The position numbers were made by a program, and so were the translations under genes. Below are positions 20,519-50,459 of a DNA stretch of 64,000 nt, piece after piece. The stretch is taken from NCBI RefSeq assembly GCF_020618775.1, contig NZ_JAESVB010000004.1, forward strand, positions 248,001-312,000, in the 5' to 3' direction. Origin of the DNA: Acidisoma silvae. GTDB lineage: Bacteria > Pseudomonadota > Alphaproteobacteria > Acetobacterales > Acetobacteraceae. Numbering within the stretch: position 1 is the stretch's first letter; every line of letters begins with the position of its first letter. The notes beneath the pieces were generated by a model that had not been told where the DNA came from, did no database searches, and saw nothing but the letters and a program-made list of their open reading frames with translations.

Positions 20519-21424
20519 TTAATCCGGGTCTTCTTCGCTGCTTGCCGGCCCCGTGCGGAAATGGCTGAGCGTCATCTTCATGTCGCGCATGCGGTCCATC
20601 TGATCGCCATGGCGGCGCAGGGCCACCGCCGTCGACAGCACATCGATGATGACCAGCGCCGCCACCCGTGAGGTGGTGGGCGTAAAGGCGTCGGTATTGT
20701 CCAGCGTCTCCACCAGCAGCGTGATATCGCACAAATCCGATAGCGCCGCCCGCGCGCCGGTCAGCGCGATGGTGCGCGCGCCATGGTCACGCGCGATGCG
20801 CGCGGCTTCGATGATGCCGTGGGACTGGCCGGTATTGGAAATGGCGATAACCACATCCTCCGGCCCCATCATCGCCGCCGCCATGACCTGCTGATGGTTG
20901 TCGGCCAAGGCGCGGCACGGCACGCCGAAAAGGGGGAATTTCTGCTCGGCATCCTGCGCCACGATGGCCGAGGCGCCGAAGCCGAAGAAGGTGATGCTGC
21001 GGGCGGCGGCGAGCAGCTCGATGGCCGCGCCCAGGGCTGCCGCATCCAGATGATGCCGCGCCCAGTCCAGGCTCGTCATGGTATATTCGAAGATCTTCTC
21101 CACCACGGCGGAGGGCGGGTCATCGGCGCGGATGACGGAATGGGTGGCGGGCGTGCCAAGGGCGACGCTTTGGGCCAGGCGCAGCCGGAAATCATGAAAG
21201 CCCGTGCAGCCGACGGCCGTGCAGAAGCGGATGACGGTGGGCTGGCTGACATCGGCCAGTTTCGCGACCTCGGCCACCGTGCCGGCCAGAACCTGCGCCG
21301 GATTGCCGAGCACGAGATCGGCGACCTTGCGTTCGGACTTGCGCAATTCGTCGAGCGACAGCCTGACGACTTCCAGAATATTCGGCCCGGCGCGGCGGGG
21401 ATTGGGCTCCGGAATACGGGACAT
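20519..21424 (-). CDS. RpiR/HexR-family transcriptional regulator
   Basis: This 301-residue protein has an N-terminal HTH_6 domain (about 15-90; LAGTVAEVAKLADVSQPTVIRFCTAVGC) and a C-terminal SIS sugar-phosphate-binding domain (about 130-270; ITFFGFGASAIVAQD and DVVIAISNTGQSHGIIEAA). Such regulators sense phosphosugars, for example KDPG for HexR. It is divergent from the first sugar ABC transporter. Two 15-bp operator-like sites lie in the gap and recur before the second ABC system, so it is the likely regulator of the whole island. A KDPG aldolase gene within the target operon fits a HexR-like effector, but that is inference. Confidence 0.9.
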   Translation of the reverse strand: MSRIPEPNPRRAGPNILEVVRLSLDELRKSERKVADLVLGNPAQVLAGTVAEVAKLADVSQPTVIRFCTAVGCTGFHDFRLRLAQSVALGTPATHSVIRADDPPSAVVEKIFEYTMTSLDWARHHLDAAALGAAIELLAAARSITFFGFGASAIVAQDAEQKFPLFGVPCRALADNHQQVMAAAMMGPEDVVIAISNTGQSHGIIEAARIARDHGARTIALTGARAALSDLCDITLLVETLDNTDAFTPTTSRVAALVIIDVLSTAVALRRHGDQMDRMRDMKMTLSHFRTGPASSEEDPD

Positions 21425-21538: not shown

Positions 21539-21553
21539 TGTAGCGATACTACT
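21539..21553. promoter_or_regulatory. Putative RpiR operator O1a
   Basis: TGTAGCGATACTACT has the form TGTAG-N5-CTACT. It sits 115 bases upstream of the rpiR start and 84 bases (start to start) from O2a. The same half-sites at the same spacing occur at 29365. The pattern resembles the TGTAAT-type palindromes known for HexR. Confidence 0.65.
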
Positions 21554-21622
21554 TTTGTCGGGCGATATTTGCGTTTTCGGGACCAAAAACTTTCAAAAAC
21601 GGCATTGCCGCCCCGGGTTTCG

Positions 21623-21637
21623 TGAATTAAAACTACA
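21623..21637. promoter_or_regulatory. Putative RpiR operator O2a over the first ABC promoter
   Basis: TGAATTAAAACTACA (TGAAT-N5-CTACA) overlaps a possible -10 (TTAAAA, 21627-21632) placed 16 bases after TTGCCG (21605-21610). Occupancy would block transcription of the sugar-binding-protein gene at 21760. The matching site in the second system is at 29449. Confidence 0.6.
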
Positions 21638-21759
21638 GAATGGCCGGGGTGATGGACGGCCGAGGGACTCAAGCCGCGACGCTCCGTCGATAAGAGCGGC
21701 CCCTGTCGTCATCGGGTTGAAGAAACGAAGCAAACAAAAAGACTACATTGGGGAACGAG

Positions 21760-22752
21760 ATGAAAAGACATCTGTTGATGGCGGCAGCCGTATTCGGCGG
21801 CAGTCTGGCGGGCGCGAGCCTGCTGACGGCACAGCCCAGCTTCGCCAAGGACGAGAAGATCGCCGTCATCATCAAGGCGACCGATTCGGATTTCTGGCAA
21901 TATATGGTGGTGGGCGCGAAGAACTACGCGCATGACCATCCCGGCGTCAGCGTCACCGTCTACGGGCCGCCGTCTGAAACCGATGTCGATCAGCAGGTCT
22001 CGATTCTGGAGAATGTGGTGACACGTCATCCCGATGGCATCCTGATCGCGCCGTCCAGTTCCGACGCGCCGGTGGAAGCCATCGGCCAGGCCATGTCGGA
22101 AGGCATTCCCGTGGTGACGGCCGATAACCGCGTCCATGGCGTGACCGTGACAGGTCATCTTTCCACCGACAATATCAAGGCCGGCGGCCAGGCGGCGCAG
22201 ACGCTGGTGGATATGCTGAAGGCCGCCGGCAAGCCGCTTACGGGCAAGGTCGGCATGATCAGCGCCTATGCGGGCGTGCAGGTTCTGACAGACCGCGACA
22301 AGGGCTTCTCCACGAAGCTCGCTGAAATCGCGCCGGACCTGAAGCTGCTGCCGGTGCGCTATATCGACAATGATATCCAGAAGGGCATGTCTTCCGCGAC
22401 CGACGTGATTTCCGCCAATCCCGATATTCTCGGCTTCTTCGCCGATAACAACCATGCGGCGGACGGCACTGCGCTGGCCATCCAGAGCAGCGGCAAATCC
22501 GGTCAGGTGATTGCCATCGGTTTCGATTCCGATCCGCAGGAAGTGGATGCGCTGAAAAGCGGAGACCTCTCGGCCCTCGTGGTGCAAGACCCGTACAGCC
22601 TCGGCTATAAGGGCGTGCAATTCGTCATCGACGCCATCAACAAGAAGCCGGTAGCCGCCTATACCGATACCGGCGTCGCGCTGATCACCAAGGCCAATAT
22701 GGATCAGCCGGCGATGAAGGGACTGCTCAACCCGCTGACCCGCAAGGAGTAA
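21760..22752 (+). CDS. Sugar ABC transporter substrate-binding protein (CUT2, ribose type)
   Basis: The 330-residue periplasmic protein has a signal peptide (MKRHLLMAAAVFGG to about Ala29 in PSFAKDE) and a two-lobe Peripla_BP_4 fold. Family blocks include VSILENVVTRHPDGILIAPSSSDA, GHLSTDNIKAGGQAAQ and GFFADNNHAADGTALAI. It would capture a pentose, polyol or related sugar for the permease and ATPase encoded next. The start ATG follows GGGGAACGAG; a TTG 12 bases upstream is less likely. It is the first gene of a three-gene operon under the O1a/O2a sites. Confidence 0.92.
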   Translation: MKRHLLMAAAVFGGSLAGASLLTAQPSFAKDEKIAVIIKATDSDFWQYMVVGAKNYAHDHPGVSVTVYGPPSETDVDQQVSILENVVTRHPDGILIAPSSSDAPVEAIGQAMSEGIPVVTADNRVHGVTVTGHLSTDNIKAGGQAAQTLVDMLKAAGKPLTGKVGMISAYAGVQVLTDRDKGFSTKLAEIAPDLKLLPVRYIDNDIQKGMSSATDVISANPDILGFFADNNHAADGTALAIQSSGKSGQVIAIGFDSDPQEVDALKSGDLSALVVQDPYSLGYKGVQFVIDAINKKPVAAYTDTGVALITKANMDQPAMKGLLNPLTRKE

Positions 22753-22756
22753 GGGC

Positions 22757-24280
22757 ATGTCGGCGGCAGCCCAGGTTATGCAAGGGCAAGGCGCGCAGCC
22801 GTTTCTGCGCCTGGAGCATATTTCCAAAAGCTATCCAGGCGTGCGCGCCCTGTCCGATGTCACGCTGGACGTGATGCCCGGTGAGGTTCACGCCTTGCTG
22901 GGGGAGAATGGTGCGGGCAAATCAACCCTCATCAAAATCCTCATGGGTGTCGTTCAGCGGGATGAGGGCAGCATCCATCTGGACGGCGAAGCGGTGGAAA
23001 TCCGCTCGCCGCTGCGCGCCCAGGCCTTGGGGCTTGCCGCCGTCTATCAGGATGTGACTCTCGCCCAGCCTTTGACGGTGGGCGAGAATTTCTTCCTCGG
23101 CCATCTGCCGCGCAAGCGCGGCATGGTGGATTGGGGCCATATGCGGCAGGAGACGGAGCGCTTTCTCCGCTCGCTGGGCATCATGACGGATGCGCGCATG
23201 CGCGTGGGTGACCTGCCCATCGCGCAGCAGCAGTTGATTGCCATCGCCAAGGTCATCTGGGGTGGTGCCAAGCTCATCGTTTTCGATGAGCCGACGGCGC
23301 TGCTGACCAATGCCGAGACCGATATCCTCTTCGGCATTATCGAGAAGCTGAAGCAGGAAGGCCGGTGCGTCATTTATATCTCCCACCGGCTGGAGGAGAT
23401 TTTCCGCATCTGTGACAGTGCCACCATCCTGAAAGATGGCGGCTTCGTCCGCCGCGTTCAGGTGGCCGACGTCACGGAAGACGATATCATGGCCATGATG
23501 GTCGGGCGCAGCCTGGAAGCGGCCTTTCCGCATCGTCCGCCGACGCCGGGCGCGGTCGCTCTGGAGCTCAGCGGCATCACCGCCGCCGGCCGGCTCGACA
23601 ATGTCGATCTGACGCTGCGGCAGGGCGAAATTCTGGGTCTCTACGGCTTGATCGGTGCCGGGCGCACCGAATTGCTGCGCGTGATTTTCGGCGCGGACCC
23701 GATGGATAGCGGAGAGATGCGCATCGCCGGCAAAACCGTGGTGCCGCGCTCGCCGCTCGGCATGATCCGCGAAGGCGTGGCCTTGCTGACCGAGGACCGA
23801 AAGCACCAGTCCCTGGCGCTGCAATTGGATGTGCATGTCAATATGAACCTCGTCGTCAGCCAGAATCAGGGCAGGTTCGGCCTGCTGGAAGGCGGCAAGG
23901 AAGATGCGGTCACCAAGCGTTTCATCAAGGCGCTGAATATCCGCACCCCGTCGCCCTACCAGAAGGTTCTCAATCTCAGCGGCGGCAACCAGCAGAAGGT
24001 CGTCATCGGCAAATGGCTGGCGGCCGATCCGCGCATCGTGCTGTTCGACGAGCCGACTATCGGCGTCGATGTCGGGGCGCGCGTTGAAATCTACGGCCTC
24101 ATTCACAGACTGGCCGACGAAGGTCGCGCCGTCATCGTCGTCTCCTCCTATCTGCCGGAGGTGATCGGCATTTCGGACCGTATCGCGGTCATGCATAAAG
24201 GACGCATCATGGGCATCGTCGACAAGGAGGAGGCAACGGAGGAAAAGCTGCTGCGCCTCGCTTCCGGACTGGCCGCATAA
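22757..24280 (+). CDS. Sugar ABC transporter ATP-binding protein (RbsA/MglA type)
   Basis: This 507-residue protein contains two fused nucleotide-binding domains. The first has Walker A GENGAGKST (49-57) and Walker B LIVFDEPTA. The second has the degenerate GLIGAGRTEL loop, the signature NLSGGNQQKVVIGKWL and IVLFDEPTIGVDVGA, as usual for CUT2 ATPases. The first signature is also atypical (IAQQQLIAIAKV). It powers import by the permease encoded next. Spacing is 4 bases after the binding-protein gene and 1 base before the permease. Confidence 0.94.
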   Translation: MSAAAQVMQGQGAQPFLRLEHISKSYPGVRALSDVTLDVMPGEVHALLGENGAGKSTLIKILMGVVQRDEGSIHLDGEAVEIRSPLRAQALGLAAVYQDVTLAQPLTVGENFFLGHLPRKRGMVDWGHMRQETERFLRSLGIMTDARMRVGDLPIAQQQLIAIAKVIWGGAKLIVFDEPTALLTNAETDILFGIIEKLKQEGRCVIYISHRLEEIFRICDSATILKDGGFVRRVQVADVTEDDIMAMMVGRSLEAAFPHRPPTPGAVALELSGITAAGRLDNVDLTLRQGEILGLYGLIGAGRTELLRVIFGADPMDSGEMRIAGKTVVPRSPLGMIREGVALLTEDRKHQSLALQLDVHVNMNLVVSQNQGRFGLLEGGKEDAVTKRFIKALNIRTPSPYQKVLNLSGGNQQKVVIGKWLAADPRIVLFDEPTIGVDVGARVEIYGLIHRLADEGRAVIVVSSYLPEVIGISDRIAVMHKGRIMGIVDKEEATEEKLLRLASGLAA

Positions 24281-24281
24281 T

Positions 24282-25280
24282 ATGGCAATCACCAGTCCCG
24301 GCATCGGCCGCGCCAAGGCCGCCAAGTCTCCCGCCTCCAGCTTCTCCTTCTGGCATCGCTACAGCACGGAACTGACGCTGGGCGCGATCTTGATCGTCTT
24401 CTTCCTGATCCTCAGCTTCGCCTCGCCCTATTTCTTCACGCCCTCCAACCTCGCCAATCTGGTGAAGCAGTCGGCCATCAATGGCATCATCGCCCTTGGC
24501 GTCACGGCCATCATCATCACCGGCGGCATCGACCTGTCGGTGGGCGCCGTCGCCGGGCTGACCGGCGTTGTCACCGCCATGCTGATGGTGGGCGGCAGCG
24601 GCGTGTTCGTCTCCTGCATCGCCGGGCTGGTGGCGGCGGTTGTCATCGGCCTTGTCAACGCCGTCATGATCTATGAAGGCGGCATCCCGCCTTTTATCGC
24701 GACGCTGGCGACCATGACGATGGTGCGCGGCCTGATCAGCCTGATCACCAATGCGATGATGGTGACAGGTTTGCAACCGGCCTTTCTGAAATTCGGCGAG
24801 GCCGATTACGCTGGGATTCCGTCGCAATTCTGGGTCTGGATCGGCCTTGCCGTGATCATGGCTTTTCTGCTGACGCGCACGCGGCTGGGGCGCAATTTTT
24901 ACGCCATCGGCGCCAGCCAGGAAGTGGCGCGGCTGAGCGGCATCAATCTGCGCCGCACCATCTATGCGGTCTATGGCCTGGGTGCCTTGCTGGCCGGTAT
25001 CGGCGGTCTGGTGTTGACGGCGCGCGTGCGTATGGCCGCGCCCACGGCGGGCGAAGGGTATGAGCTTTATGCCATTGCGGCGGCCGTCATCGGCGGCGCC
25101 AGCCTGAACGGTGCGCAGGGGTCTGTGCTCGGCGCCATCCTGGGTGCGCTGATCATGACCACCATTACCAATGGCGGCAATCTGCTGGGCATCGACGCCT
25201 TTACTTTGCAGATCGTCATCGGTGCGCTGATTGCGGGCGCGGTCTGGCTGGACAAGCTGCGCAAGGGCGGCAGGCGGTAG
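24282..25280 (+). CDS. Sugar ABC transporter permease (RbsC type)
   Basis: This 332-residue membrane protein of the BPD_transp_2 family has about ten helices. Diagnostic segments are ALGVTAIIITGGIDLSVGAVAGL in the middle of the protein and AAAVIGGASLNGAQGSVLGAILGAL near the C-terminus, which contacts the ATPase. It forms the channel of the first sugar importer. It is the last gene of the operon. Its stop is 2 bases from the stop of the convergent MBL-fold gene, leaving no room for a terminator. Confidence 0.93.
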   Translation: MAITSPGIGRAKAAKSPASSFSFWHRYSTELTLGAILIVFFLILSFASPYFFTPSNLANLVKQSAINGIIALGVTAIIITGGIDLSVGAVAGLTGVVTAMLMVGGSGVFVSCIAGLVAAVVIGLVNAVMIYEGGIPPFIATLATMTMVRGLISLITNAMMVTGLQPAFLKFGEADYAGIPSQFWVWIGLAVIMAFLLTRTRLGRNFYAIGASQEVARLSGINLRRTIYAVYGLGALLAGIGGLVLTARVRMAAPTAGEGYELYAIAAAVIGGASLNGAQGSVLGAILGALIMTTITNGGNLLGIDAFTLQIVIGALIAGAVWLDKLRKGGRR

Positions 25281-25282
25281 TC

Positions 25283-26143
25283 TTAAGGCGCGAGCCGGTA
25301 TTCCATACCCGTGGATGCCGGCAGCAGCTGGATCGGCAAATCAGACTTAGCCGCGGCCGCTTCGATCTCCGCGCGCGGCAGGGTATTGAAATCGAACATG
25401 TCGAAGTGATGCGCGATCATCGTCGGAATGGCCGCTGCTTCGGTCAGCGCGATGGCTTCGCCGAGTAAAAAGTTACCCGGCACGCGCTGCGCCGCCAAAG
25501 CCGGTGACCGTCCGTTCACCGGCAGCAGCGCCAGATCGGCACCGAGCGCCTGCACGTCCGCGATCTGTCCGGGAAAGGGAATGCTGTCGCCCGAGTGAAA
25601 GACGGTGACACCAGCGACGGACATGCCGTAGCCGAGAAAGAGATGAAGGCCGTCTTCATCCCGCTCCAATGTCTCATGCGCGGCGCGGAGCGCCCGCAGT
25701 GTCAGGCCGGACAGGGGGAAAAGGCTTTCGCCGGCTTCAATCGCCAACACGCGATCATCAGTCACACCACCGCGCGCCATGGCTTCCGCCCGTTTCGCGC
25801 GCGGGGCTACCACGCGCGCTTGCGGCTGCAATGCCAGAAGCGGCTGCAAGGTGCCGGGGTCCATATGATCGGTATGGGCATGGCTACACAGCACAAGGTC
25901 GATCGGCGGCAAATCCTGCACTGCAATCGGCGCCGGCATCATGCGCCGATGCGGCAAAGGCTTGCCGCGATATTTCTCGGCCAGTGAATCCGACAGATAG
26001 GCGTCTATCAGCAGGGTCAGGCCAGCGCCCCTGATCAGAAAACCGGCCTGGCCCAGCCAGTAAAGACAGAGACCCTCACGGGGTTCCCGCAGTCGTGACG
26101 CGAGCGGCCCCGCAAAGGGCTGGGCGTCACACCGGACGGGCAT
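25283..26143 (-). CDS. MBL-fold metal-dependent hydrolase (UlaG-like lactonase)
   Basis: This 286-residue metallo-beta-lactamase-fold enzyme has the zinc motif LCSHAHTDHMD, a second-site Asp in FHSGDSI, and a late His in MIAHHFDMFD. The overall plan matches UlaG, the L-ascorbate-6-phosphate lactonase. The start is ATG 26143 (MPVRCDAQPF), overlapping the dehydrogenase stop by 17 bases; the much longer frame upstream is a shadow of that gene. As the last gene of a sugar-catabolic operon, a lactone-opening role after sugar oxidation is the best guess, but it is inference. Confidence 0.83.
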   Translation of the reverse strand: MPVRCDAQPFAGPLASRLREPREGLCLYWLGQAGFLIRGAGLTLLIDAYLSDSLAEKYRGKPLPHRRMMPAPIAVQDLPPIDLVLCSHAHTDHMDPGTLQPLLALQPQARVVAPRAKRAEAMARGGVTDDRVLAIEAGESLFPLSGLTLRALRAAHETLERDEDGLHLFLGYGMSVAGVTVFHSGDSIPFPGQIADVQALGADLALLPVNGRSPALAAQRVPGNFLLGEAIALTEAAAIPTMIAHHFDMFDFNTLPRAEIEAAAAKSDLPIQLLPASTGMEYRLAP

Positions 26144-27071
26144 GGTCACCCTGCAAAGCCGCCAGCAGGTTCTGCACGGCGATGACGGTCGCGCGGTCAA
26201 CGCTCTCTTCCGTGAAGGCGCCGATATGGCTGGTGGCGATGACATGCGGATGCCCGGCCAGTGCCAGCGACCGTGGCGGCTCCTCGGCAAAGACATCGGC
26301 CGCATAGGTATCCAATTGGCCGCTTTCGATGGCGGCGAGCACGGCGGCCTCATCCACAAGGCCAGCACGCGCGGTATTCACCAGAATGGCGCCATGGCGC
26401 ATGATGGCGAGATGTTCCGCGTCGATCAGCGGACGGCCATCGGCAGGCGGCGGGCAATGCAGCGTGACGATATCGGAGTCCGCCAGCAATGCCGGAATCT
26501 CCGCCCAGCGGAAGTCATGCGGGCTTTCGAAATTCGGCCGCATCGGGTCATAGCCGATGACGCGCGCGCCGAGCGCGCCCGTCAGCTTCGCGACGTCGCG
26601 GCCGATGGCCCCGCAACCGATGACGCCGACGGTCGCCGCGCGCAATTCGCGGCCGCGCCGGCGTGGCCAATGGCCGGCCTTGATGCCGGCATCCGCCGCC
26701 GGGACATGGCGCAGGGCTGAGAGGATCAGGGTGAGCGCCAGCTCCGCGACACCGGCGGCATTGGCGCCGTCGGCGGTCAGCACCGGAATGCCGCGCGCGC
26801 GCAAATGCGCGACCGGCAGATTGTCGGTGCCCACACCATTGCGGGCGACGGCGCGCAGGCTGCCGGCGGCGGCGATAACGGCTTCCGACACCGGCTCCAC
26901 CCCCGCAATCCAGCCGATGCAATCCGGGATCAGGGACAGCAGTGCGGCTTCGTCCGGCTGCTTTCCCGCCGGCCCCAGCACAATTTCAAAACCCTGAGCT
27001 TCGAAATGCGCGAAGGCGGGATGGGGATGCGCGGTCAAGCTGCGCGGCGTGACCAGAATTTTTCCAGACAT
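26127..27071 (-). CDS. D-isomer-specific 2-hydroxyacid dehydrogenase
   Basis: This 314-residue NAD(P)-dependent enzyme has the Rossmann motif GVIGCGAIGRDVAKL (about 147-161) and the family catalytic set: Arg in LVNTARAGLVDE, Glu in ADVFAEEPP and His in IATSHIGAFTEES. It interconverts a 2-oxo acid and a D-2-hydroxy acid, as in glyoxylate/hydroxypyruvate or phosphoglycerate dehydrogenases. It lies 4 bases after the AroE-like gene and overlaps the lactonase-like gene. In the island it could reduce the 2-oxo acid product of the aldolase step or oxidise a sugar acid; the direction is not readable. Confidence 0.92.
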   Translation of the reverse strand: MSGKILVTPRSLTAHPHPAFAHFEAQGFEIVLGPAGKQPDEAALLSLIPDCIGWIAGVEPVSEAVIAAAGSLRAVARNGVGTDNLPVAHLRARGIPVLTADGANAAGVAELALTLILSALRHVPAADAGIKAGHWPRRRGRELRAATVGVIGCGAIGRDVAKLTGALGARVIGYDPMRPNFESPHDFRWAEIPALLADSDIVTLHCPPPADGRPLIDAEHLAIMRHGAILVNTARAGLVDEAAVLAAIESGQLDTYAADVFAEEPPRSLALAGHPHVIATSHIGAFTEESVDRATVIAVQNLLAALQGDHARPV

Positions 27072-27075
27072 GATA

Positions 27076-28035
27076 TCAGGCCCGTTTCACGGCGCCGACC
27101 TCGCCCGCGATGCGCGCCAGCGCATCGAAGTCCGGTCCGCTGGTCGGAATGTCGATATGGAAGACCTCGGCAATCACCTGCGTCCAGCCATGGATGAAAT
27201 AGGTCCAGCCGTCTTCGATCTGGAGATGTTTCGCTGTTTCCTGCGCGCGCGCCTGATCGAGGAAGATGAGATTGCCGCGATAGTTCAGATCCCAGACGAT
27301 GGCCTGTTCGGGGAATTGCACCGCATCCGTCAGCGGCGATCCTGGCGCGTCCTTGCCCAGACCCGTGGCATTGATGACCAATGAACCGGGTTTCAGCCCG
27401 GCCACGACGGCATCGTTATCGGCAGGATCGGGGGCGACCACATAGTCCAGCTTCGCCGTCGTCGGCACCTGCGCATGAATGCGGCGGATTTCGTCCAGCC
27501 GGGCAGGGCTGCGGTTGGAGACGATAATGCGGCTCGGCACATTCGCGCCGCGTGCTTCCCGCATCAGATGCCAGGTGAGCGCGATGGTCGATCCGCCCGC
27601 GCCCATCGAAAAAACCTCAGCCCCGGTCTTGGCGAAATGATCGGGCGGCAGAAATCCGTCCAGCGACAGGCCGGAACTGATCGGGTCTTTGGCGTGGCAG
27701 ATCAGCTTGCCGTCCTGTTTGGAGATGCAGCTCGTCTCATCCATGAAGGCCGCATGCGGGTCGATGACATCGAAAAGATCATGACAGGCTTTGAACAGAT
27801 CGATCTTGTGCGTCGTTACCAGCGCGCCGGCCGAGTGCGGATCGTCGCGGATGAATGCCACCGCCGCGCGATAGGCAGCGGGGTCCGCATGCAGCGGAAA
27901 ATCAATGCCCTTGATTTCGGCATCAAGGCCAAGATGCGCGGCCCACGCGGGAAAAACCCGCATGATGGAGCTTTGCCCGGTAGAGACGCCGATAAAATAC
28001 AGCGTCGGTTTTGTGGCAGGTGCGGGAAGGGGCAT
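27076..28035 (-). CDS. Shikimate dehydrogenase (AroE)-like oxidoreductase
   Basis: This 319-residue protein has an AroE-type substrate domain followed by a Rossmann domain. The N-terminal IGVSTGQSSIMRVFPAWA replaces the usual SxSxSP substrate motif with a STGQSS variant. The catalytic Lys is in GALVTTHKIDLF. The nucleotide loop is MGAGGSTIALTW, followed by SNRSPARLDEIRR. Substrate-binding residues differ enough that shikimate itself is doubtful, and no other shikimate-pathway genes are near. It sits between KDPG aldolase and a 2-hydroxyacid dehydrogenase in the sugar operon, so it probably oxidises a polyol, inosose or deoxy-sugar acid. The start is supported by GGAGAG. Confidence 0.78.
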   Translation of the reverse strand: MPLPAPATKPTLYFIGVSTGQSSIMRVFPAWAAHLGLDAEIKGIDFPLHADPAAYRAAVAFIRDDPHSAGALVTTHKIDLFKACHDLFDVIDPHAAFMDETSCISKQDGKLICHAKDPISSGLSLDGFLPPDHFAKTGAEVFSMGAGGSTIALTWHLMREARGANVPSRIIVSNRSPARLDEIRRIHAQVPTTAKLDYVVAPDPADNDAVVAGLKPGSLVINATGLGKDAPGSPLTDAVQFPEQAIVWDLNYRGNLIFLDQARAQETAKHLQIEDGWTYFIHGWTQVIAEVFHIDIPTSGPDFDALARIAGEVGAVKRA

Positions 28036-28051
28036 ATCTGTTCTCTCCAGC

Positions 28052-28699
28052 TCAGCCGCCGCGCGCGGCGCGCACGCGGGCGACGGCCGCGCGGGCCTTG
28101 GCCGCGATGTCGGTCCAGCGGCCGTCGGCCATGTCCTTGGTGGTCGCGATCCAGGTGCCGCCGACCGCCAGCACGGTCTTGATCGTCAGCCATTCCGCGA
28201 TGGTGCTTTCCGTGACACCGCCGGTCGGGATGAAGCGCGGCCCCAGATGCGCGAAGGGCGCGGAAACCCCGGCCAGGGCGGCGGGACCGCCGGCAATGCC
28301 GGCCGGGAAGAACTTGCAGAGCCGGGCGCCGAGTTTGATGGCGGCGCCCAATTCGCTCGGCGTCATGATGCCGGGGGCGAAGGGAAAGTTGCGTGTCGTG
28401 GCGCCGGTCACAATCTTGGCGTCGAAGCCCGGGGCGAGGCCAAAGGCCGCGCCCGCTGCCTGCGCGGCATCCAGCGAGGCGATGTCCAGAATGGTGCCGG
28501 CACCGACCAGAAGATCGGGCCGCTTGTCGCGCAGGATATGCATCACATCCGCCGCCGCCTTGGTGCGGAAGGTGATTTCCGCGAGGGGCAATCCGCCCTC
28601 AAGCAAGGCATCGGCCAACGGAATTGCGTCGTCCACGCTTTCTATGGCGATGACAGGCACGACGCCGATGGCGCCGATGCGGTCCAGAAGATCGGTCAT
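28052..28699 (-). CDS. eda: 2-keto-3-deoxy-6-phosphogluconate aldolase family (Eda)
   Basis: This 215-residue class I aldolase of the Entner-Doudoroff family cleaves KDPG, or a related 2-keto-3-deoxy acid, to pyruvate plus an aldehyde. The general-base Glu is in PLAEITFRT, the phosphate/substrate Arg follows in the same segment, and the Schiff-base Lys is in LCKFFPAG. GAGTILD and PTGGVTE complete the barrel. ATG 28699 (MTDLLDRIG) is chosen; the longer frame overlaps the isomerase gene. Given the context the true substrate may be KDPGal or another keto-deoxy acid rather than KDPG. Confidence 0.9.
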   Translation of the reverse strand: MTDLLDRIGAIGVVPVIAIESVDDAIPLADALLEGGLPLAEITFRTKAAADVMHILRDKRPDLLVGAGTILDIASLDAAQAAGAAFGLAPGFDAKIVTGATTRNFPFAPGIMTPSELGAAIKLGARLCKFFPAGIAGGPAALAGVSAPFAHLGPRFIPTGGVTESTIAEWLTIKTVLAVGGTWIATTKDMADGRWTDIAAKARAAVARVRAARGG

Positions 28700-28700
28700 G

Positions 28701-29345
28701 TCAGGTCTCGTTCTTGCTATCGTTCTTGCTATTGGCGGCATAAAGCACCGCGATCTCGTCTGCCGGACGCGGCTTGTACAGCCGATTGTCGCGCAGCCCC
28801 CAGCCGTCGGCTGTGGCCACCACACGCTGCCGCATGCCGCCCGCACGTTCGATGATAGCATAATCCTGGCCGGAATCGGCCGGATACATGAAGCTCATCA
28901 CCAGTTCCGTCGTGCCGACATTGACGGAGCGGTGAATCCAGAAGGGCGGCACGTAGCACATGTCACGCGGGCCGATGGGCATGGCGCGGATATCGCCTTC
29001 GGGGCTTTCCAGCAGCATGACGCCCTGGCCCGCCTCGCCGTAATAGATTTCCGGGCGGTCGGCGCGGGCATGAATATGGCCGCGCGTGAGATAGAACTCA
29101 TCGCCGATCCGGCCAGGCTCCATGCGGGTGACGCCGAAAATCAGGTCTCCGGCATTGGCCGAGGGCCGGTAGTCCGTCACCTCATAGACCAGGGCGTCGC
29201 CTTGGCCGAGTGCGGCGGCGAAGGCCGTCTGGTCTTCGTACAGACCCTTTAAATCCGAGAGCTGCTTCGTATAGCGGCCCGAGGCCTGGCCCAGTCGCCC
29301 GGCGGAGACCGAGACGGGGCAAAGGATCGGCTCCTGCAGGTGCAT
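28701..29345 (-). CDS. Cupin-type glucose-6-phosphate isomerase family protein
   Basis: This 214-residue cupin belongs to the archaeal-type phosphoglucose isomerase family (GPI, PF06560 by recall). Metal ligands appear as His90 and His92 in TRGHIHARADRPEIYYG, Glu99 and His138 in PPFWIHRS. Known members interconvert glucose-6- and fructose-6-phosphate. In bacterial sugar operons their substrate is often unproven, and another aldose/ketose phosphate is possible. It is the first gene of the minus-strand catabolic operon, and a TATAAA (29380-29385) plus operator O1b lie just upstream. AGGGAAG provides the ribosome-binding site. Confidence 0.85.
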   Translation of the reverse strand: MHLQEPILCPVSVSAGRLGQASGRYTKQLSDLKGLYEDQTAFAAALGQGDALVYEVTDYRPSANAGDLIFGVTRMEPGRIGDEFYLTRGHIHARADRPEIYYGEAGQGVMLLESPEGDIRAMPIGPRDMCYVPPFWIHRSVNVGTTELVMSFMYPADSGQDYAIIERAGGMRQRVVATADGWGLRDNRLYKPRPADEIAVLYAANSKNDSKNET

Positions 29346-29364
29346 GACGCTTCCCTATGCGTTT

Positions 29365-29379
29365 TGTAGTTTCACTACC
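29365..29379. promoter_or_regulatory. Putative RpiR operator O1b
   Basis: TGTAGTTTCACTACC (TGTAG-N5-CTACC) lies 20 bases upstream of the cupin isomerase start. It is immediately downstream of a minus-strand TATAAA, so it would cover the start of the catabolic operon transcript. It is the counterpart of O1a, again 84 bases from its partner O2b. Confidence 0.65.
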
Positions 29380-29385
29380 TTTATA
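29380..29385 (-). promoter_or_regulatory. Candidate -10 of the minus-strand catabolic operon
   Basis: TATAAA on the minus strand abuts operator O1b; the -35 region (GATTTT at a 17-base spacer) is weak, which would fit an activator-dependent or tightly repressed promoter. This was judged by eye. Confidence 0.4.
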
Positions 29386-29448
29386 CGCCCTTGTTCACGA
29401 AGAAAATCCCCAAAATTGCATCAAGACCGTTGACGTCCGGAATATTCA

Positions 29449-29463
29449 TGAATTATTGCTACA
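29449..29463. promoter_or_regulatory. Putative RpiR operator O2b over the second ABC promoter
   Basis: TGAATTATTGCTACA (TGAAT-N5-CTACA) overlaps a possible -10 (TTATTG, 29453-29458) placed 17 bases after TTGACG (29430-29435). It is 41 bases before the binding-protein start. It matches O2a in both half-sites. Confidence 0.6.
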
Positions 29464-29503: not shown

Positions 29504-30487
29504 ATGACGTTCACAGGACTTCGCCGCCTGGCGCTGGGATCTGCCCTGGCCGTCACCTTGGCGCCTTTTGCGACCCATGCCGCCCATGCGGCCTGTTCGG
29601 TCGGCGTGTCGATGTTCACGCTCGGCGCGCCCTATTACGCGGCGCAGATGGCCGCCGCCGTTGATGAGGCAAAAAAGGCCGGCTGCACGGTCACCACGGC
29701 CGACGGCCAGAACGATCTCAGCAAGCAGATCGGCGACGTGGAAGACATGGTCTCCAAAGGCATTCAGCTCCTCATCATCAATCCGCGGGATCCTGAAGCG
29801 ATGGTGCCTGCCGTCAATGCGGCGGCAAAGGCAGGCGTGAAGGTCGTCGTCATCGACAGCGGCCTGGACCCCAAGGCGAAATATGTGACCCTCGTGCAAT
29901 CCTCCAACGACCAGAACGGCTTCCTGGTCGGCCAGTGGCTGGCGGATAAGATGAGCGGCACGCCGATGAAGATCGCGCTGATCTCGGGCGACAAGGGCAA
30001 TATCGTGGGTGAGGAACGCCGTCTTGGCGTGCTCAAGGGCGTGATCGAGGAACAGCTGGTCAAAAGCGGCCATGCCGGCTTCGACGTCGTCGCCCAGGGC
30101 TGGGGCGGCTGGAATACCGATGGCGGGCTCAAGGCCATGGAAGATATTTTGACCGCGCATCCGGACGTCAATGTCGTGCTGGGTGAGAATGACTCGATGG
30201 TGCTGGGCGCGCGCGATGCGCTGCGCGAAGCCGGCAAGCTGAAGGGCGTTCTGCTGGTCGCGGCGGCCGACGGCCAGAAGGATGCGCTGGAACTGATCCA
30301 GAAGGGCGAATACGGCGCGACAGGCCTCAACAATCCCGATCTCGTGGCGCGGACGGGCGTCGATATCGGGCTGAAGGCGGTCGCCGGCAAGCTGCCGGCG
30401 GATTTCCCGCGTGTTGACTACACGACGCCGGAAGTCATCACCAAGGACAATGTCGCCAAATTCTACAATCCGAAGGCCGTTTTCTGA
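29504..30487 (+). CDS. Sugar ABC transporter substrate-binding protein (CUT2)
   Basis: This 327-residue periplasmic protein starts at MTFTGLRRLALGSALAV, a signal peptide ending near HAAHA. The mature part has the ribose/galactose-binding fold, with SMFTLGAPYYAAQMAAAVDEAKK, KGIQLLIINPRDPEAMVPAV and GENDSMVLGARDALREAG. The GGGGGA ribosome-binding site supports this start over a longer upstream frame that crosses the promoter. It is only distantly like the binding protein at 21760, so the two importers probably differ in specificity while sharing operators. Confidence 0.92.
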   Translation: MTFTGLRRLALGSALAVTLAPFATHAAHAACSVGVSMFTLGAPYYAAQMAAAVDEAKKAGCTVTTADGQNDLSKQIGDVEDMVSKGIQLLIINPRDPEAMVPAVNAAAKAGVKVVVIDSGLDPKAKYVTLVQSSNDQNGFLVGQWLADKMSGTPMKIALISGDKGNIVGEERRLGVLKGVIEEQLVKSGHAGFDVVAQGWGGWNTDGGLKAMEDILTAHPDVNVVLGENDSMVLGARDALREAGKLKGVLLVAAADGQKDALELIQKGEYGATGLNNPDLVARTGVDIGLKAVAGKLPADFPRVDYTTPEVITKDNVAKFYNPKAVF

Positions 30488-30510
30488 TCGGTCGGGTTGA
30501 GGGATAGGGC

Positions 30511-32052
30511 ATGAGCGATCTTCTGACGCTGACCGGCATCACCAAATCCTTCGGTGGCGTCAAGGCGCTCAAGGGCGTGGACTTCTCCCTGGCACGGGGA
30601 GAGGTTCATGCTTTGCTCGGCGAAAACGGCGCCGGAAAATCCACGCTGATGCGCGTGGTCGGCGGAGAGATCCAGCCCGAAGCCGGCAGCATCACCTTCG
30701 AAGGCCGCAGCCTGACACTGACGGATCCGAAAGCGGCGGCCGATCTCGGCATTGCCGTCATCCATCAGGAACTGGCGCTGGCGCCTGATCTGTCGGTCGC
30801 TGAGAATATCTTCATGCGGGAATTGCCGGCGGCGATCGCCTGGGGAAAGCTCAACCGCCGCGCGCGCGCGGTGTTGGACCGTATGGGCTTCGAGCTCGAC
30901 GTGCGCCGCCGCGTGGGTGACTTGGCCGTCGCCCAGCAGCAGGTGGTGGAAATCGCCAAGGCGCTGTCGCGCGACGTCAAGGTCATCGTCTTCGACGAAC
31001 CGACGGCCGTGCTGTCGTCCCGCGATGCCCAGCGTCTGCACGACATCATTGCCGTGCTGCGCGCATCCGGCGTCGGCATCGTCTATATTTCGCATCGGCT
31101 GGAAGAGGTCTTCAAGATCGCCGACCGCATGACGGTGATGAAGGATGGCGCCCTGGTCGGTGTCACATCGCCGCAGACGTCGACGATTGATGACGTCATC
31201 CGCATGATGGTCGGCCGCAATCTGTCTGCCATGTTCCCCAAAGCCGCGCATCGCAGCATCGGGGCCGAAGTGCTGAACGTCGAAAATCTGCGCCGTGGCA
31301 TGAAGGTGCGGGGCGTCAGCCTGTCCGTGCGCGCCGGGGAAATCGTGGGCCTTGGCGGTCTGGTGGGTTCCGGCCGCACGGAAACCGCGCGCCTCATCTT
31401 CGGGGCGGACGCCAAGGAAGCCGGTGAAATCCGCCTGCACGGCAAGGCGGTGACCATCAAGTCGCCATTGGATGCGGTTCTGGCCGGCATCGGCCTGGTG
31501 CCGGAAGATCGCAAACATCACGGCGCGATCCTGGATATGTCGATCCGCATCAATACCACGATGGCGCGGCTGAAACCCGTCGTGAACGCCATGGGGTTCA
31601 TCCGCCGCCACAAGGAACGCGATACGGTGACCGCACTCGGCCAGCAGTTGCGGCTGAAATCGGCCGGGCCGGAAGCCCCCGTTTCCAGCCTCTCGGGCGG
31701 CAATCAGCAGAAGGTCGTGCTGGCGAAATGGTTCCACGCCGGGGGTGACGTCATCATCCTGGATGAGCCGACACGCGGTGTCGATGTCGGCGCCAAGACT
31801 GAAATCTATGGCCTGATCGAAGAACTGGCGGCGGCGGGGCGCGCCATCCTGGTTATCTCCTCCGAACATCAGGAATTGTTCGGCCTCTGCGACCGCGTTC
31901 TTGTCATGGCGGAAGGTGAATTGCGCGGCACCTTGCTGCCGGATGACTATTCCGAAGAAAAGCTTCTCGCTTTGGCGATGACGCAATCCGTGGCCGCCGA
32001 TCACGCAGCCCCGCTCGATCTTCCCGCGCATACGCATCAGCCGGTGAATTGA
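30511..32052 (+). CDS. Sugar ABC transporter ATP-binding protein (RbsA type)
   Basis: This 513-residue tandem ATPase has Walker A GENGAGKST (37-45), a first-domain signature region VGDLAVAQQQVVEIAKAL and Walker B VIVFDEPTAVLSS. The second half has GLVGSGRTETAR, SSLSGGNQQKVVLAKWF and VIILDEPTRGVDVGAK. It energises the second sugar importer. It is 23 bases after the binding-protein gene and 1 base before the permease gene. Confidence 0.94.
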   Translation: MSDLLTLTGITKSFGGVKALKGVDFSLARGEVHALLGENGAGKSTLMRVVGGEIQPEAGSITFEGRSLTLTDPKAAADLGIAVIHQELALAPDLSVAENIFMRELPAAIAWGKLNRRARAVLDRMGFELDVRRRVGDLAVAQQQVVEIAKALSRDVKVIVFDEPTAVLSSRDAQRLHDIIAVLRASGVGIVYISHRLEEVFKIADRMTVMKDGALVGVTSPQTSTIDDVIRMMVGRNLSAMFPKAAHRSIGAEVLNVENLRRGMKVRGVSLSVRAGEIVGLGGLVGSGRTETARLIFGADAKEAGEIRLHGKAVTIKSPLDAVLAGIGLVPEDRKHHGAILDMSIRINTTMARLKPVVNAMGFIRRHKERDTVTALGQQLRLKSAGPEAPVSSLSGGNQQKVVLAKWFHAGGDVIILDEPTRGVDVGAKTEIYGLIEELAAAGRAILVISSEHQELFGLCDRVLVMAEGELRGTLLPDDYSEEKLLALAMTQSVAADHAAPLDLPAHTHQPVN

Positions 32053-32053
32053 C

Positions 32054-33043
32054 ATGACCCAATCCACAACTGTGGCCCCCGTCGCCGCACCGCGTCGTTC
32101 GTTCGATGCCGGCGAATTCTTTCGCCGCTACGGCACCGTCTGCATCTTTCTGGTGCTGGTCCTGGGCGCGAGTTTCGAATCGAACGCCTTTCTGAGCGAC
32201 CGCAATATCATGAACGTGCTGCGCCAGATTTCCGGCACCGGCATCATGGCGGTCGGCATGCTCTTCGTTATTCTGACGGGCGGCATCGATCTGTCGGTCG
32301 GCTCCATTCTGGCGCTTGGCAGCGTTGTCAGCGCCATTGCCATCGATGCGCATGGCACGGGCGCGGGCGTCGGCATTTCGGTCGGTGCCGGCGCGCTCTG
32401 CGGTCTCGTCACCGGCGTGCTTGTGGCCTATGCGGGCCTGCCGCCTTTCGTCATCACGCTGGCCGCCATGACGGCCGTGCGCGGCTTCGCGCTGATCGTC
32501 TCTGACGGCCAGCCGATCATGATGGACGACGATGCCAGCACGGTCATCACCAATTTCGGCTCCGGCTTCTTTCTCGGCATTCCCGATCCGGTCTGGCTGA
32601 TGGCGCTGGTCTTCGTGGTGGCCGGCGTGGTGCTGGGTTTCACCAAATTCGGCCGTCTGGTGAAGGCCATCGGGTCCAACCGGGAAGCCGTGCGCCTGTC
32701 GGGCATCGCCGTGCCGCGTTACGTGATGGCGGTCTATGTCATTTCGGGCGCCTTGGCGGCGCTGGCCGGTGTCATCACCACCAGCCGCACGGGTGTCGGT
32801 TCGGGCGTCGTCGGTGTCGGCGCCGAGCTGAACGTCATCGCCGCCGTCGTCATCGGCGGCGCCAGCCTGATGGGCGGCAAGGGTGGCGTCATCAACACGC
32901 TGCTTGGTGCGCTGGTGATGGGCGTCATCGCCAATATCATGAACCTGGTCGGCGTGCCCGGCTATAACCAGCAGGTCTGCATGGGGGCCATCATTGTCAT
33001 CGCCATGCTGCTGCAGCACGGGTCTCGCTGGTTCAAGCGCTGA
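32054..33043 (+). CDS. Sugar ABC transporter permease (RbsC type)
   Basis: This 329-residue inner-membrane protein has the BPD_transp_2 hallmarks AVGMLFVILTGGIDLSVGSIL and AAVVIGGASLMGGKGGVINTLLGALVMG. A soluble stretch of about 30 residues precedes the first helix. It completes the second CUT2 importer, with the SDR gene following 34 bases later in the same direction. Confidence 0.93.
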   Translation: MTQSTTVAPVAAPRRSFDAGEFFRRYGTVCIFLVLVLGASFESNAFLSDRNIMNVLRQISGTGIMAVGMLFVILTGGIDLSVGSILALGSVVSAIAIDAHGTGAGVGISVGAGALCGLVTGVLVAYAGLPPFVITLAAMTAVRGFALIVSDGQPIMMDDDASTVITNFGSGFFLGIPDPVWLMALVFVVAGVVLGFTKFGRLVKAIGSNREAVRLSGIAVPRYVMAVYVISGALAALAGVITTSRTGVGSGVVGVGAELNVIAAVVIGGASLMGGKGGVINTLLGALVMGVIANIMNLVGVPGYNQQVCMGAIIVIAMLLQHGSRWFKR

Positions 33044-33077: not shown

Positions 33078-33851
33078 GTGTATCTCGAAAAATTCAGGCT
33101 GGACGGAAAAGTCGCCGTCATCACGGGTGCCGCGCGGGGTATCGGCCTTGCCTGCGCCGAGGCGCTGGCGGAAGCGGGGGCTGCCGTGGTGCTGACGGAT
33201 ATGAACGCGGCTGCGGCCGAAAGTGCCGCCGCAACTCTCGCGGCGCGCGGCTATACCGCCTCGGCGGAAGCGCTGGACGTGACAGACCCGCGCGCGGTGG
33301 AGCGCGTGCATGACGCGGTCATCGCCCGCCACGGGCGCTGCGATATCCTGGTCAATAATGCCGGCATCGCCATCAGCAACCGCCCGGCCGAGACCATGGA
33401 TGACGCAACCTGGCTGAAAGTGCTGGACGTGAACCTGAACGGCACCTTCTGGTGCTGCCGCAGCTTCGGCGCCACCATGCTGAAGAACGGCACCGGGGCC
33501 ATCGTCAATATCGGCTCCATGTCCGCCGATATCGTCAATCGTCCGCAGGAACAGAGCCAGTACAATGCCTCCAAGGCTGGCGTGCATCATCTGACGCGGT
33601 CGCTCGCCGCCGAATGGGCGGCGCGTGGCGTGCGCGTCAATGCGGTGGCCCCGACCTATATCGACACCGAACTCAATTCATACGTCTATGAGAATGCCGA
33701 GATGTATAAGCATTGGGTGGGCGGCACGCCGATGAACCGCCTGGGCCGCACCGAGGAAGTCGCTTCCGTCGTACTGTTCCTGGCCTCCGACGCGGCCAGC
33801 CTGATGACGGGGTCTATCGTTCTGGCCGATGGCGGCTATACCTGCTGGTAA
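33078..33851 (+). CDS. SDR-family oxidoreductase (polyol/sugar dehydrogenase-like)
   Basis: This 257-residue classical short-chain dehydrogenase has TGAARGIG for cofactor binding, the structural NNAG motif, and the catalytic Ser plus YNASK (SQYNASKAG). The closing ASLMTGSIVLADGGYTCW is typical of polyol dehydrogenases such as galactitol- or arabinitol-type enzymes. The start is GTG with GGGG upstream. It follows the second ABC importer in the same transcription unit, which suggests that the imported sugar alcohol is oxidised here to a ketose, the likely substrate of the FGGY kinase. That order is inference. Confidence 0.9.
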   Translation: MYLEKFRLDGKVAVITGAARGIGLACAEALAEAGAAVVLTDMNAAAAESAAATLAARGYTASAEALDVTDPRAVERVHDAVIARHGRCDILVNNAGIAISNRPAETMDDATWLKVLDVNLNGTFWCCRSFGATMLKNGTGAIVNIGSMSADIVNRPQEQSQYNASKAGVHHLTRSLAAEWAARGVRVNAVAPTYIDTELNSYVYENAEMYKHWVGGTPMNRLGRTEEVASVVLFLASDAASLMTGSIVLADGGYTCW

Positions 33852-33892
33852 GAAGCACGGATCGGCTCGGGATAGACGGAAACCGAAATTTT

Positions 33893-33994
33893 GCGTCATG
33901 CGCGGCTTTATGCCGCGCATCTACCCGTTCGGGCGCCCAGACCGCGTTTGGGCGCCGCAGCGGGTAGACCTGCGGGACAAGCCCGCGGGCGACG
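33893..33994. repeat. Intergenic cloverleaf repeat, copy D
   Basis: Bounded by GCGTCATG and GGGCGACG, this copy has GCGCGGC-tttat-GCCGCGC, a GGCGCCCA/TGGGCGCC centre and TGCGGG-acaag-CCCGCG on the right (imperfect). It separates the SDR gene from the kinase gene, two genes in the same orientation, so it may partly terminate the transporter transcript. Confidence 0.85.
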
Positions 33995-34053
33995 ATAGCG
34001 GGGACGTTTCAATCGACACCCGACCGGCTTTTGGTGGCTGGGGAGAGGATAAA

Positions 34054-35556
34054 ATGGCCGAAGGCCTGACGCTCGCGATCGATATCGGCACCGGCAGCGC
34101 GCGAGCGGCGCTGGTGGACGGGCAGGGCGTGGTTCTGCGTGTCGCGGCGCGGGAGCATGATCAGATCGTGCCGCAATTCGGTTGGGCCGAGCAGCGCCCG
34201 GCGCAATGGTGGGACGGTACGGTCGCCGCCATCCGGGACTTGCTGGACGGCATGCCTGAAGCGCGGCAGTCTATCGAAGCCATCGCCGCCTGCGGCCAGA
34301 TGCATGGCACCGTGCTGGTGGACGGTGATGGCGATCTCACCCGCGACACCGCGCCGCTGTGGAATGACAAGCGGACCGCCGCCGCCGTCGCCGCTTTCGA
34401 GACGGCCAATCCCTCGGCCGATTATCTCAAGCTGACCGGCAATCCGCCGACGCCGGCCTGGCCCGGCTTCAAGCTGGCCTGGCTACGCGACAATGACCCT
34501 GGGGCCTATGCCCGCGCCGCGCATGTGCTGATGCCGAAGGATTATATCAATCTGCGGCTGACGGGCGTGGCCGCCATGGATCGCGGCGATGTCTCGTGCA
34601 GCTTTCTCAATGACTGCGCGACCGATGACTGGTCTCCCGCGATGATCGCGGCTTTGGGGCTGGATGCGGCCAAGCTGCCGCCGGTGCGTGACCCGCGCGA
34701 TATCCTGGGTGCGGTCACGCCGGAAGCGGCACGGGAGACGGGTCTGCGCGCCGGCACGCCGGTGCTTGTCGGCAGCGCGGATTATCCCGCCGCTCTGTTG
34801 GGCGCCGGCGTCTGCCGCCCGGGTCTGGCGTCGGACGTCACTGGCACCTCCTGCATCATGACGGTGATCGCGGAACGCCCGATCCTGGACCCGGAAATCT
34901 GCAATGTCGCGACCGTCGAAGGCGGCTGGGGCGCGTTCGTGCTGCTGGAAACGGGTGGGGATGCGGTGCGGTGGGCGCGGCGCGCGCTGCATGAGCGGCG
35001 GCTGGATTACGCGGCGATCATGGATCAGGCAGAAACCGCGCCGGCCGGCTGCGACGGGCTGTTCTTTCTGCCCTATCTGACCGGGGAACGGTTGGGCGCG
35101 CATCGCAATGCGCGGGCGCAGTTTTTCGGCCTCGGCGCCGGCCATGGCCTCGCGCATCTGGACCGGGCGCTGCTGGAAGGCGTGGGTTTCGCCGGTAACC
35201 GCGCGCTGCGCATCATGGCTGACCGCGCCGGGCAAAAGGTGGAGCGTGTCATCGCCACCAGCGGCGGCGCCAAAAGCCCGCTCTGGCTGAAGATCAAGGC
35301 CAGCGCCTATAATCTGCCGATCCTGGTGCCGCGCGAGGCCGAAAGCGGGCTGGTCGCCTGTGCCGCCATGGCCGCCGCCGCCACGGGGCGTTTCGCCTCG
35401 CTGCATGCGGCGGTGGATGCTTTCGTGCGATTCGAGCCTGAAATCCTGCCCGACCCGGCCTGGGCCGAGCGCTATGCGCGCATGCAGCCGATTTTCGATC
35501 AGCTCTATCAGCAGAGCCAGTCGCTGTATGATGCGCTGGACGCGCTATCGGATTGA
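34054..35556 (+). CDS. FGGY-family carbohydrate kinase (xylulokinase-like)
   Basis: This 500-residue sugar kinase of the actin-like ATPase fold has an N-terminal phosphate loop AIDIGTGSARAALVDG, the substrate block ACGQMHGTVLVD and PLWNDKR, and a C-terminal ATP site with VIATSGGAKSPLWLKIKA. The start is ATG 34054 after GGGGAGAGGAT; the upstream extension runs through repeat copy D and is rejected. It phosphorylates a ketose or polyol using ATP. Xylulose is the nearest known substrate class, but the unusual gene company (KDPG aldolase, AroE-like protein, lactonase) leaves the substrate open. Confidence 0.9.
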   Translation: MAEGLTLAIDIGTGSARAALVDGQGVVLRVAAREHDQIVPQFGWAEQRPAQWWDGTVAAIRDLLDGMPEARQSIEAIAACGQMHGTVLVDGDGDLTRDTAPLWNDKRTAAAVAAFETANPSADYLKLTGNPPTPAWPGFKLAWLRDNDPGAYARAAHVLMPKDYINLRLTGVAAMDRGDVSCSFLNDCATDDWSPAMIAALGLDAAKLPPVRDPRDILGAVTPEAARETGLRAGTPVLVGSADYPAALLGAGVCRPGLASDVTGTSCIMTVIAERPILDPEICNVATVEGGWGAFVLLETGGDAVRWARRALHERRLDYAAIMDQAETAPAGCDGLFFLPYLTGERLGAHRNARAQFFGLGAGHGLAHLDRALLEGVGFAGNRALRIMADRAGQKVERVIATSGGAKSPLWLKIKASAYNLPILVPREAESGLVACAAMAAAATGRFASLHAAVDAFVRFEPEILPDPAWAERYARMQPIFDQLYQQSQSLYDALDALSD

Positions 35557-50043: not shown

Positions 50044-50459
50044 TCGGGATCAAGCGCAGCAAGGCAGGCGTCGCGGCCGTGGAATTCGCCATGGCCTGGC
50101 CTTTGGCCTTTGTCATTTTCGCGGGAACATTCAGCATCGGTACGATCTGCTGGATTCAATCCGGCTTGCAGGTCGTCGCTTTTGGAACGGCGCGCTGTCT
50201 GGCTATCGGCGAAACCGCCTGCCCTGCCGGAAACGGGCCGGCCTATGCGGTCAGTCTCGCCAATACCCGTCTGTATAAAAATGTCATTACCGCATCCAAT
50301 GTCGCTGTCACGAGCGCGACCACCTGCAATGGCGCGAGCGGTAGCTACAGCCAGGTGACGATCACCGATTCCAGTTGGATCGCCAATGTCCTGCCGTCCA
50401 AATTGAGCAAGCTGGCCTTGGTCGTGAAGGCCTGCTACCCGACCATGAATTCAAGCTGA
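50040..50459 (+). CDS. TadE/TadF-like minor pseudopilin
   Basis: This 139-residue protein begins MIGIKRSKAGVAAVEFAMAWPL, with the same GVAAVEFA processing motif as its upstream neighbour, then a helix (LAFVIFAGTFSIGTICWI). The periplasmic domain has paired cysteines (ARCLAIGETACPAG and TTCNGA). ATG 50040 overlaps the previous stop by ATGA; a longer frame starting at 49860 is rejected. Its 3' end overlaps the convergent CtrA-like gene by 9 bases. Confidence 0.85.
   Translation: MIGIKRSKAGVAAVEFAMAWPLAFVIFAGTFSIGTICWIQSGLQVVAFGTARCLAIGETACPAGNGPAYAVSLANTRLYKNVITASNVAVTSATTCNGASGSYSQVTITDSSWIANVLPSKLSKLALVVKACYPTMNSS

Follow-up and report, generated by a model that had tools for sequence, protein, structure and literature searches.

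Why are two sugar importers of Acidisoma silvae each preceded by the same pair of short palindromes, set the same distance apart? In the window analysed here (64,000 nucleotides, positions 248,001 to 312,000 of contig NZ_JAESVB010000004.1), each importer promoter carries a 15-bp palindrome pair, TGTAG-N5-CTAC[T/C] (site A) and then TGAAT-N5-CTACA (site B). The first pair lies between a minus-strand gene for an RpiR-family regulator and importer 1, and the second between a minus-strand catabolic operon and importer 2 with its SDR dehydrogenase and FGGY kinase genes. An earlier reading of the same DNA (the original prediction) had located these four sites and given a start-to-start spacing of 84 bp for both pairs, and direct reading of the sequence agrees. 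With somewhat better than even confidence, comparison with related loci suggests that the four sites are operators of the regulator encoded at 20519-21424, and that one oligomer would bridge each pair into a DNA loop and thereby repress transcription. The argument depends mainly on how the distance between the sites has changed among relatives, as phased spacing is the evolutionary signature that a DNA loop would be expected to leave.

Loci for comparison were collected through orthologues of the regulator, which were found at five loci on named contigs, in 7 of the 299 genomes that represent the window's family in the set (E <=1e-75, own genome included), in 5 of 385 genomes of a class-wide sample (1e-80, own included), in 24 of 394 genomes of the family of G692, a Phyllobacterium genome (1e-80), and in 13 plasmid records. 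A further family, labelled Burkholderiaceae from its member G1530 (a Paraburkholderia record), was reached through the shikimate-dehydrogenase-like (SDH-like) protein of the catabolic operon (15 of 299 at 1e-100). The nearest named relative found is Acidisoma cellulosilyticum, whose regulator is 90% identical to that of the window; the NCBI family of the genus is Acidocellaceae. Sites upstream of the gene for the cupin-type glucose-6-phosphate isomerase (GPI), which heads the catabolic operon, were called with a weight matrix derived from 21 sites at a threshold of 7 bits. At least two sites over 7 bits precede the orthologous cupin-GPI gene in 44 of the 50 scored loci, an arrangement that appears to give a single regulator two operators within the same control region, as looping would require. 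The original prediction had named absence of the sites from orthologous promoters as an outcome that would count against it; they are present. In 36 of the 50 scored loci a single strand carries, in the order given, the genes for GPI, the SDH-like and PGDH-like proteins, the MBL-fold protein and the regulator. Two loci, L047 (from Sinorhizobium meliloti) and L071, have the GPI gene in tandem behind an SDR gene, at a distance of no more than about 50 bp, with no pair directly upstream. One locus of a same-genus genome (L026, genome G004) was left outside the scored set with its GPI gene at a contig edge; at 5707-5794, away from that gene, it carries the pair-like sequences TGTAGTTTCTCTTCA and TGTAGATAATCTAGA, 73 bp apart.

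Free variation of the spacing in relatives had been named as a second outcome contrary to the prediction, and here the result is divided: the spacing does vary, but mostly by whole helical turns rather than freely. Called A-B spacings are 84 bp in Acidisoma and 62-63, 73, 96-97, 104-105, 113-115, 124, 135, 156, 167-171 and 281 bp elsewhere, and a three-site locus (L049) has spacings of 44 and 175 bp, so that the overall range is 44 to 281 bp. Within this range, 43 of the 45 called spacings lie no more than 0.25 turn from an integer at 10.5 bp per turn. Because many loci share a length by descent, they were reduced to 12 two-site length classes marked on the regulator tree, including the Burkholderiaceae pair and the sub-threshold locus L029 (96-97 class). 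L063, a sister of the 167-170 group, was absent from this first list, as were L062, L049 and the remaining 115-bp loci (L054, L059, L070/L073, L072). All 12 classes are in phase (R 0.758, p 0.0004; V-test p 7e-5), and a free scan of periods from 9 to 13 bp peaks at 10.40 bp (p 0.0012). Phasing is also seen without the window lineage (n=11, V p 3e-4), when L029 is dropped (still 12 of 12, p 6e-5), when L063, L062 (135 bp) and both L049 spacings are added (14 of 16 classes, V 0.558, p 0.0007), and in a variant that takes the L049 spacings together with the inner spacings of L062 and L069, which involve sub-threshold sites (15 of 16). Distinct raw spacings give R 0.56 (n=21, p 0.001), and differences between sister groups are phased as well (n=11, V 0.71, p 2e-4), also when restricted to those above 12 bp (n=8, p 0.006) and when Acidisoma is then removed (n=7, p 0.016). 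Representatives drawn at random from clusters of the regulator yield p 2e-5 with 19 clusters (80% identity) and 0.010 with 9 (70%); clustering the control regions themselves at 70% DNA identity was rejected as too permissive, with 37 of 44 rows in one cluster, and the regulator clusters were used instead. Control distances measured to tblastn match edges are unphased (intergenic length p 0.59, GPI-to-A p 0.87, B-to-gene p 0.53). Such whole-turn changes would favour cooperative or looped binding across each pair. L062 and L069 may additionally hold three-operator arrays upstream of GPI, with distances of about 73-74 and 62-63 bp when sub-threshold sites are counted.

Close comparisons illustrate the individual steps. 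The regulators of L060 and L061 are close and their A and B sites identical, yet the spacings are 104 and 114 bp, respectively, and the alignment contains a 10-bp gap plus smaller cancelling gaps; L067 has a spacing of 124 bp; and L074 and L075 (62 and 63 bp) differ from their sisters L070 and L073 (115 bp) by 5.0 turns. Between the two Acidisoma species, spacer 1 aligns gaplessly at 64% identity whereas the stretch between B1 and the gene has a net length difference of 20 bp, and the spacer of region 2 is gapless at 78% identity with flanks also nearly constant in length. Greater divergence is found in the Burkholderiaceae loci (L079-L089), where the operators have changed to GTTAR... and GATAG-N5-CTATC forms at spacings of 84-86 bp. 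This diverged pair occurs in 11 of 17 further loci: it is present at all 11 where the stretch read includes an orthologue of the regulator (at least 51% identity) and at none of the six where it does not; these six comprise four loci of the Burkholderiaceae family and two Rhizobiaceae plasmids.

Within the window, TGWAK-N5-CTAC has five matches against 0.24 expected, a count reached in none of 100 shuffles; the fifth match, at 50425, lies outside both pairs. Two pairs (<=200 bp) with one common spacing were obtained in none of 2000 shuffles of the window in two-base blocks. The genome-wide search proposed earlier for the same motif did not bear out an enrichment (50 matches versus 110 for the reversed control), so that it is the pairing alone that stands out. 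The strict palindrome GTAR-N5-YTAC occurs at 17 places in the genome (the reversed control, of other composition, at 609 per strand), with no two of them closer together than 300 bp; the A sites of the window make up two, and another, at about C7:59493-59494, is perfect and lies inside a 360-aa open reading frame that looks glycosyltransferase-like by eye. The recurrence of 84 bp in both promoters, stressed in the original prediction, is not independent evidence. The interiors of the two promoters are 39% identical (p 0.005), and 46% identical (p 0.0004) in the sister species, on which ground independence of the two spacers was rejected; the promoters probably descend from one duplicated module. 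As the copies look related by descent, the repeated 84 bp is weak evidence by itself.

The regulator combines an N-terminal HTH_6 domain (8.9e-20; 70.9 bits, gathering threshold 28.3) with a C-terminal SIS domain (7.7e-19; 68.2 bits, gathering threshold 25), the architecture of the RpiR/MurR family. Of its earlier description as RpiR/HexR-type, the first term stands and the second is not supported as given: HexR is its best NCBIfam model, yet the score of 264.1 bits is below the cut-off of 296, and the operator type is that of RccR. Of the solved structures, 8k3b and 8ju9 match it best (the latter E 2e-62, 42% identity), and 8JU9 is RccR (PMC12713135). RccR recognizes a 15-bp site with the repeats TGTAGT/ACTACA, found twice upstream of aceE, where footprinting revealed two protected sites, many hypersensitive bands in the region between them, and apparent cooperativity (PMC5489143). 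The A sites of the window fit TGTAG-N5-CTAC and would thus qualify as RccR-type operators (TGTAGT-N3-ACTACA), and perfect TGTAGTN3ACTACA copies occur in L034, L035 and L045. The structure of RccR defines nine contact residues for 2-keto-3-deoxy-6-phosphogluconate (KDPG) (PMC10810197). Five of them (S139, H164, S183, K270, R277) are the same in all 58 orthologue rows, the window included; S185 and S188 are each T in 56 rows (T and S, respectively, in the window); and H148 and R152 are replaced by Q and L in every row, so that the regulator lacks the full contact set of an RccR-like KDPG sensor. Since both residues are replaced throughout and R152A abolished KDPG binding in RccR (PMC10810197), the effector is probably another phosphosugar and not KDPG itself.

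In the mechanism envisaged, one oligomer per control region, probably a tetramer formed of two dimers, would bind both palindromes; that this protein can hold two DNA sites at once is suggested by analogy with the published tetramers of RccR, MurR and NanR. Bridging of A2 and B2 would close an 84-bp loop and shut the promoters of both importer 2 and the divergent operon, because B2 lies over the inferred importer -10 and A2 abuts the -10-like element of the divergent operon. Since the intervening DNA would need to be stiff and properly wound, both sites would stay on one helical face while the length between them changed by whole turns. A phosphorylated sugar intermediate, probably other than KDPG, would relieve repression. 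The analysis establishes the sites, their conservation and phasing, their overlap with promoter-like elements and their occurrence together with the regulator, while binding, tetramer, loop, repression and effector are inferences. The promoter remarks of the original prediction for the second system are plausible by reading, with a TTGACG placing the -10 inside B2 and a minus-strand TATAAA with a weak -35 next to A2. Its broader claim, that a pair of RpiR dimers loops the DNA and silences two importers and a catabolic operon together, is supported in part: whole-turn spacing favours cooperative or looped binding at each pair, but joint action of the two loci, as stated there, is not supported.

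The same promoter geometry could arise with no loop at all, each operator blocking one divergent promoter (A that of the catabolic operon or regulator gene, B that of the importer) and the spacing being simply the distance between promoters. In region 2 each of the two sites overlaps or abuts a -10-like element. A TTGAC precedes B by 14-19 bp in 33 of 44 loci, where the -10 would fall inside B, and in 33 of 44 the nearest gene recognised over a distance of 600 bp is divergent. Whole-turn steps over 62-281 bp would remain unexplained on this account, however, as would a pair at the three loci where that gene is tandem (L043, L051, L054; none is recognised at the other eight), and we regard it as rather unlikely. 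In three loci (L074, L075, L076) the nearest TTGAC is downstream of B and B does not cover the -10, so that repression may work differently there; in eight loci no TTGAC was seen.

A third protein between A and B, such as a shared activator or a bending protein, might instead hold both promoters on one face without any bridging by the RpiR regulator. In 19 of 44 loci (L028, L042 and L044 among them) the two sites enclose a palindrome that matches TTGCNNNGCAA in 7 or 8 of its 8 letters and whose distance from A shows weak phasing (p 0.02); the Burkholderiaceae loci have a common central GGGTTTTC-like block. The distance of the palindrome to B, in contrast, is unphased (p 0.29), and loci whose best central match is at most 6 of 8 letters (84, 62/63, 73, 124 and 104 bp) are still in phase, so TTGCNNNGCAA does not explain the phasing; in the window it is not evident (best 5 of 8 letters). 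This palindrome may mark a bending site or a second regulator or activator, and phasing imposed by a third protein seems improbable.

Several points weigh against bridging by the regulator itself. Six of the 50 scored loci lack two called sites (L027, L029, L047, L048, L069, L071), with best scores of 5.0 bits in L027, 7.2 and 5.7 in L029, and 9.7 and 5.8 in L069; L048 comes from the same record as L079, which has the diverged operator form. Two spacings fall out of phase, the 171 bp of L063 (16.29 turns) and the 175 bp of L049 (16.67 turns), and the 96-97 bp of L028-L030 (9.1-9.2 turns) is a borderline case. The length classes and sister contrasts were drawn on the tree after the lengths had been seen, for which reason the cluster-based test is the most trustworthy, and the constraint to helical phase is not significant at its coarsest level (60% identity, 4 clusters, p 0.20). 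For the diverged loci, motif and register come from inspection of an alignment by eye, and the constancy of the region 2 spacer between the Acidisoma species says little because the flank lengths hardly changed either. The RccR sites at aceE, finally, are described as "separated by 68 bp", which amounts to 83 bp centre to centre (7.9 turns) if measured edge to edge and to 6.5 turns if measured start to start. That the phasing itself is chance, produced by few independent length changes and shared ancestry, is very improbable: about 11 independent changes can be read from the tree and the coarsest clustering is not significant, but the phase survives removal of the window lineage, cluster representatives down to 70% identity and the sister contrasts, and the control distances are flat.

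Table 1. Sites and genes of the two importer regions, in window coordinates.
Feature	Position	Strand	Remark
RpiR-family regulator (HTH_6 + SIS), HexR/RccR-like	20519-21424	-	Pfam, NCBIfam and PDB comparison
Putative operator A1, TGTAGCGATACTACT	21539-21553	+	regulator-gene side; kept in A. cellulosilyticum
Putative operator B1, TGAATTAAAACTACA	21623-21637	+	importer side, 84 bp from A1
Sugar-binding protein 1 (Peripla_BP_4)	21760-22752	+	best NCBIfam model D-allose binding protein, 148 bits vs cut-off 335
Importer 1 ATPase	22757-24280	+	family search
Importer 1 permease	24282-25280	+	family search
Divergent catabolic operon, whole	25283-29345	-	family search
MBL-fold protein, catabolic operon	25283-26041	-	
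PGDH-like 2-hydroxyacid dehydrogenase, catabolic operon	26127-27071	-	
SDH-like protein, catabolic operon	27076-28035	-	
KDPG/KHG aldolase, catabolic operon	28052-28720	-	
Cupin-type GPI, catabolic operon	28701-29345	-	
Putative operator A2, TGTAGTTTCACTACC	29365-29379	+	abuts TATAAA of catabolic operon
TATAAA, -10-like, catabolic operon	29380-29385	-	abuts A2; weak -35; inferred by reading
TTGACG, -35-like, importer 2	29430-29435	+	places -10 inside B2
Putative operator B2, TGAATTATTGCTACA	29449-29463	+	over inferred -10, 84 bp from A2
Importer 2, all three genes	29504-33043	+	
Importer 2 binding protein	29504-30487	+	family search
Importer 2 ATPase	30511-32052	+	named by similarity to annotated genes in relatives
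Importer 2 permease	32054-33043	+	named by similarity to annotated genes in relatives
SDR dehydrogenase	33078-33851	+	within 33078-35556
FGGY kinase, xylulokinase-like	33829-35556 (34051-35556 searched)	+	336 bits vs cut-off 380

The catabolic cluster as a whole (cupin GPI, KDPG/KHG aldolase, SDH-like, PGDH-like and MBL-fold proteins, FGGY kinase and SDR; 25283-29345 and 33078-35556) is widely kept, and a literature search for its pathway gave no matching paper.

Among known systems, RccR of Pseudomonas is similar in family, in sequence (42% identity), in its 15-bp palindrome and in the presence of two copies in one control region. It differs in that it targets central carbon genes and also uses a 28-bp site, in its KDPG-carboxylate contacts H148 and R152 (Q and L here), and in that the excerpts of its papers do not discuss helical phasing of the aceE pair; a pattern search for that pair matched 0 of 193 genomes of the phylum and 21 viral contigs. 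For HexR of Pseudomonas and relatives, the likeness lies in the best NCBIfam model and in the KDPG-aldolase-family enzyme of the neighbouring operon here, whereas the score falls under the HexR cut-off and the HexR site is TTGT-N7-8-ACAA (PMC5489143). For two other RpiR tetramers, bridging of two sites has been proposed (MurR of Escherichia coli) or looping discussed (NanR of Streptococcus pneumoniae); NanR is described as an activator, however, the MurR sites are 17 bp apart, and phased spacing is not mentioned in the excerpt (PMC12713135). The RccR/KDPG crystal is tetrameric, with the phosphosugar bound across the tetramer (PMC10810197). In the literature available to us, part of it in excerpt, looping by RpiR regulators has so far only been proposed, though the solved sugar-binding domains are tetramers, and no report of phased operator spacing for an RpiR regulator was found in the open-licence portion. 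It is possible, though somewhat less likely than not, that an RpiR phosphosugar sensor acts here as a true looping repressor whose loop has been rebuilt in whole turns (about 6 to 27) in alpha- and betaproteobacteria; the effector may then open the loop by changing the bridge and not simply by releasing the DNA, since the sugar phosphate spans the dimer-dimer interface in solved RpiR tetramers. The natural promoters form a ready-made spacing series (62 to 281 bp) for one orthologous regulator, which makes selection on helical phase measurable and the loop model directly testable. DNA looping is textbook knowledge for LacI, AraC and GalR, with two operators per control region, one bridging oligomer and a dependence on helical phase. 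These belong to other protein families, and the evidence here is evolutionary only.
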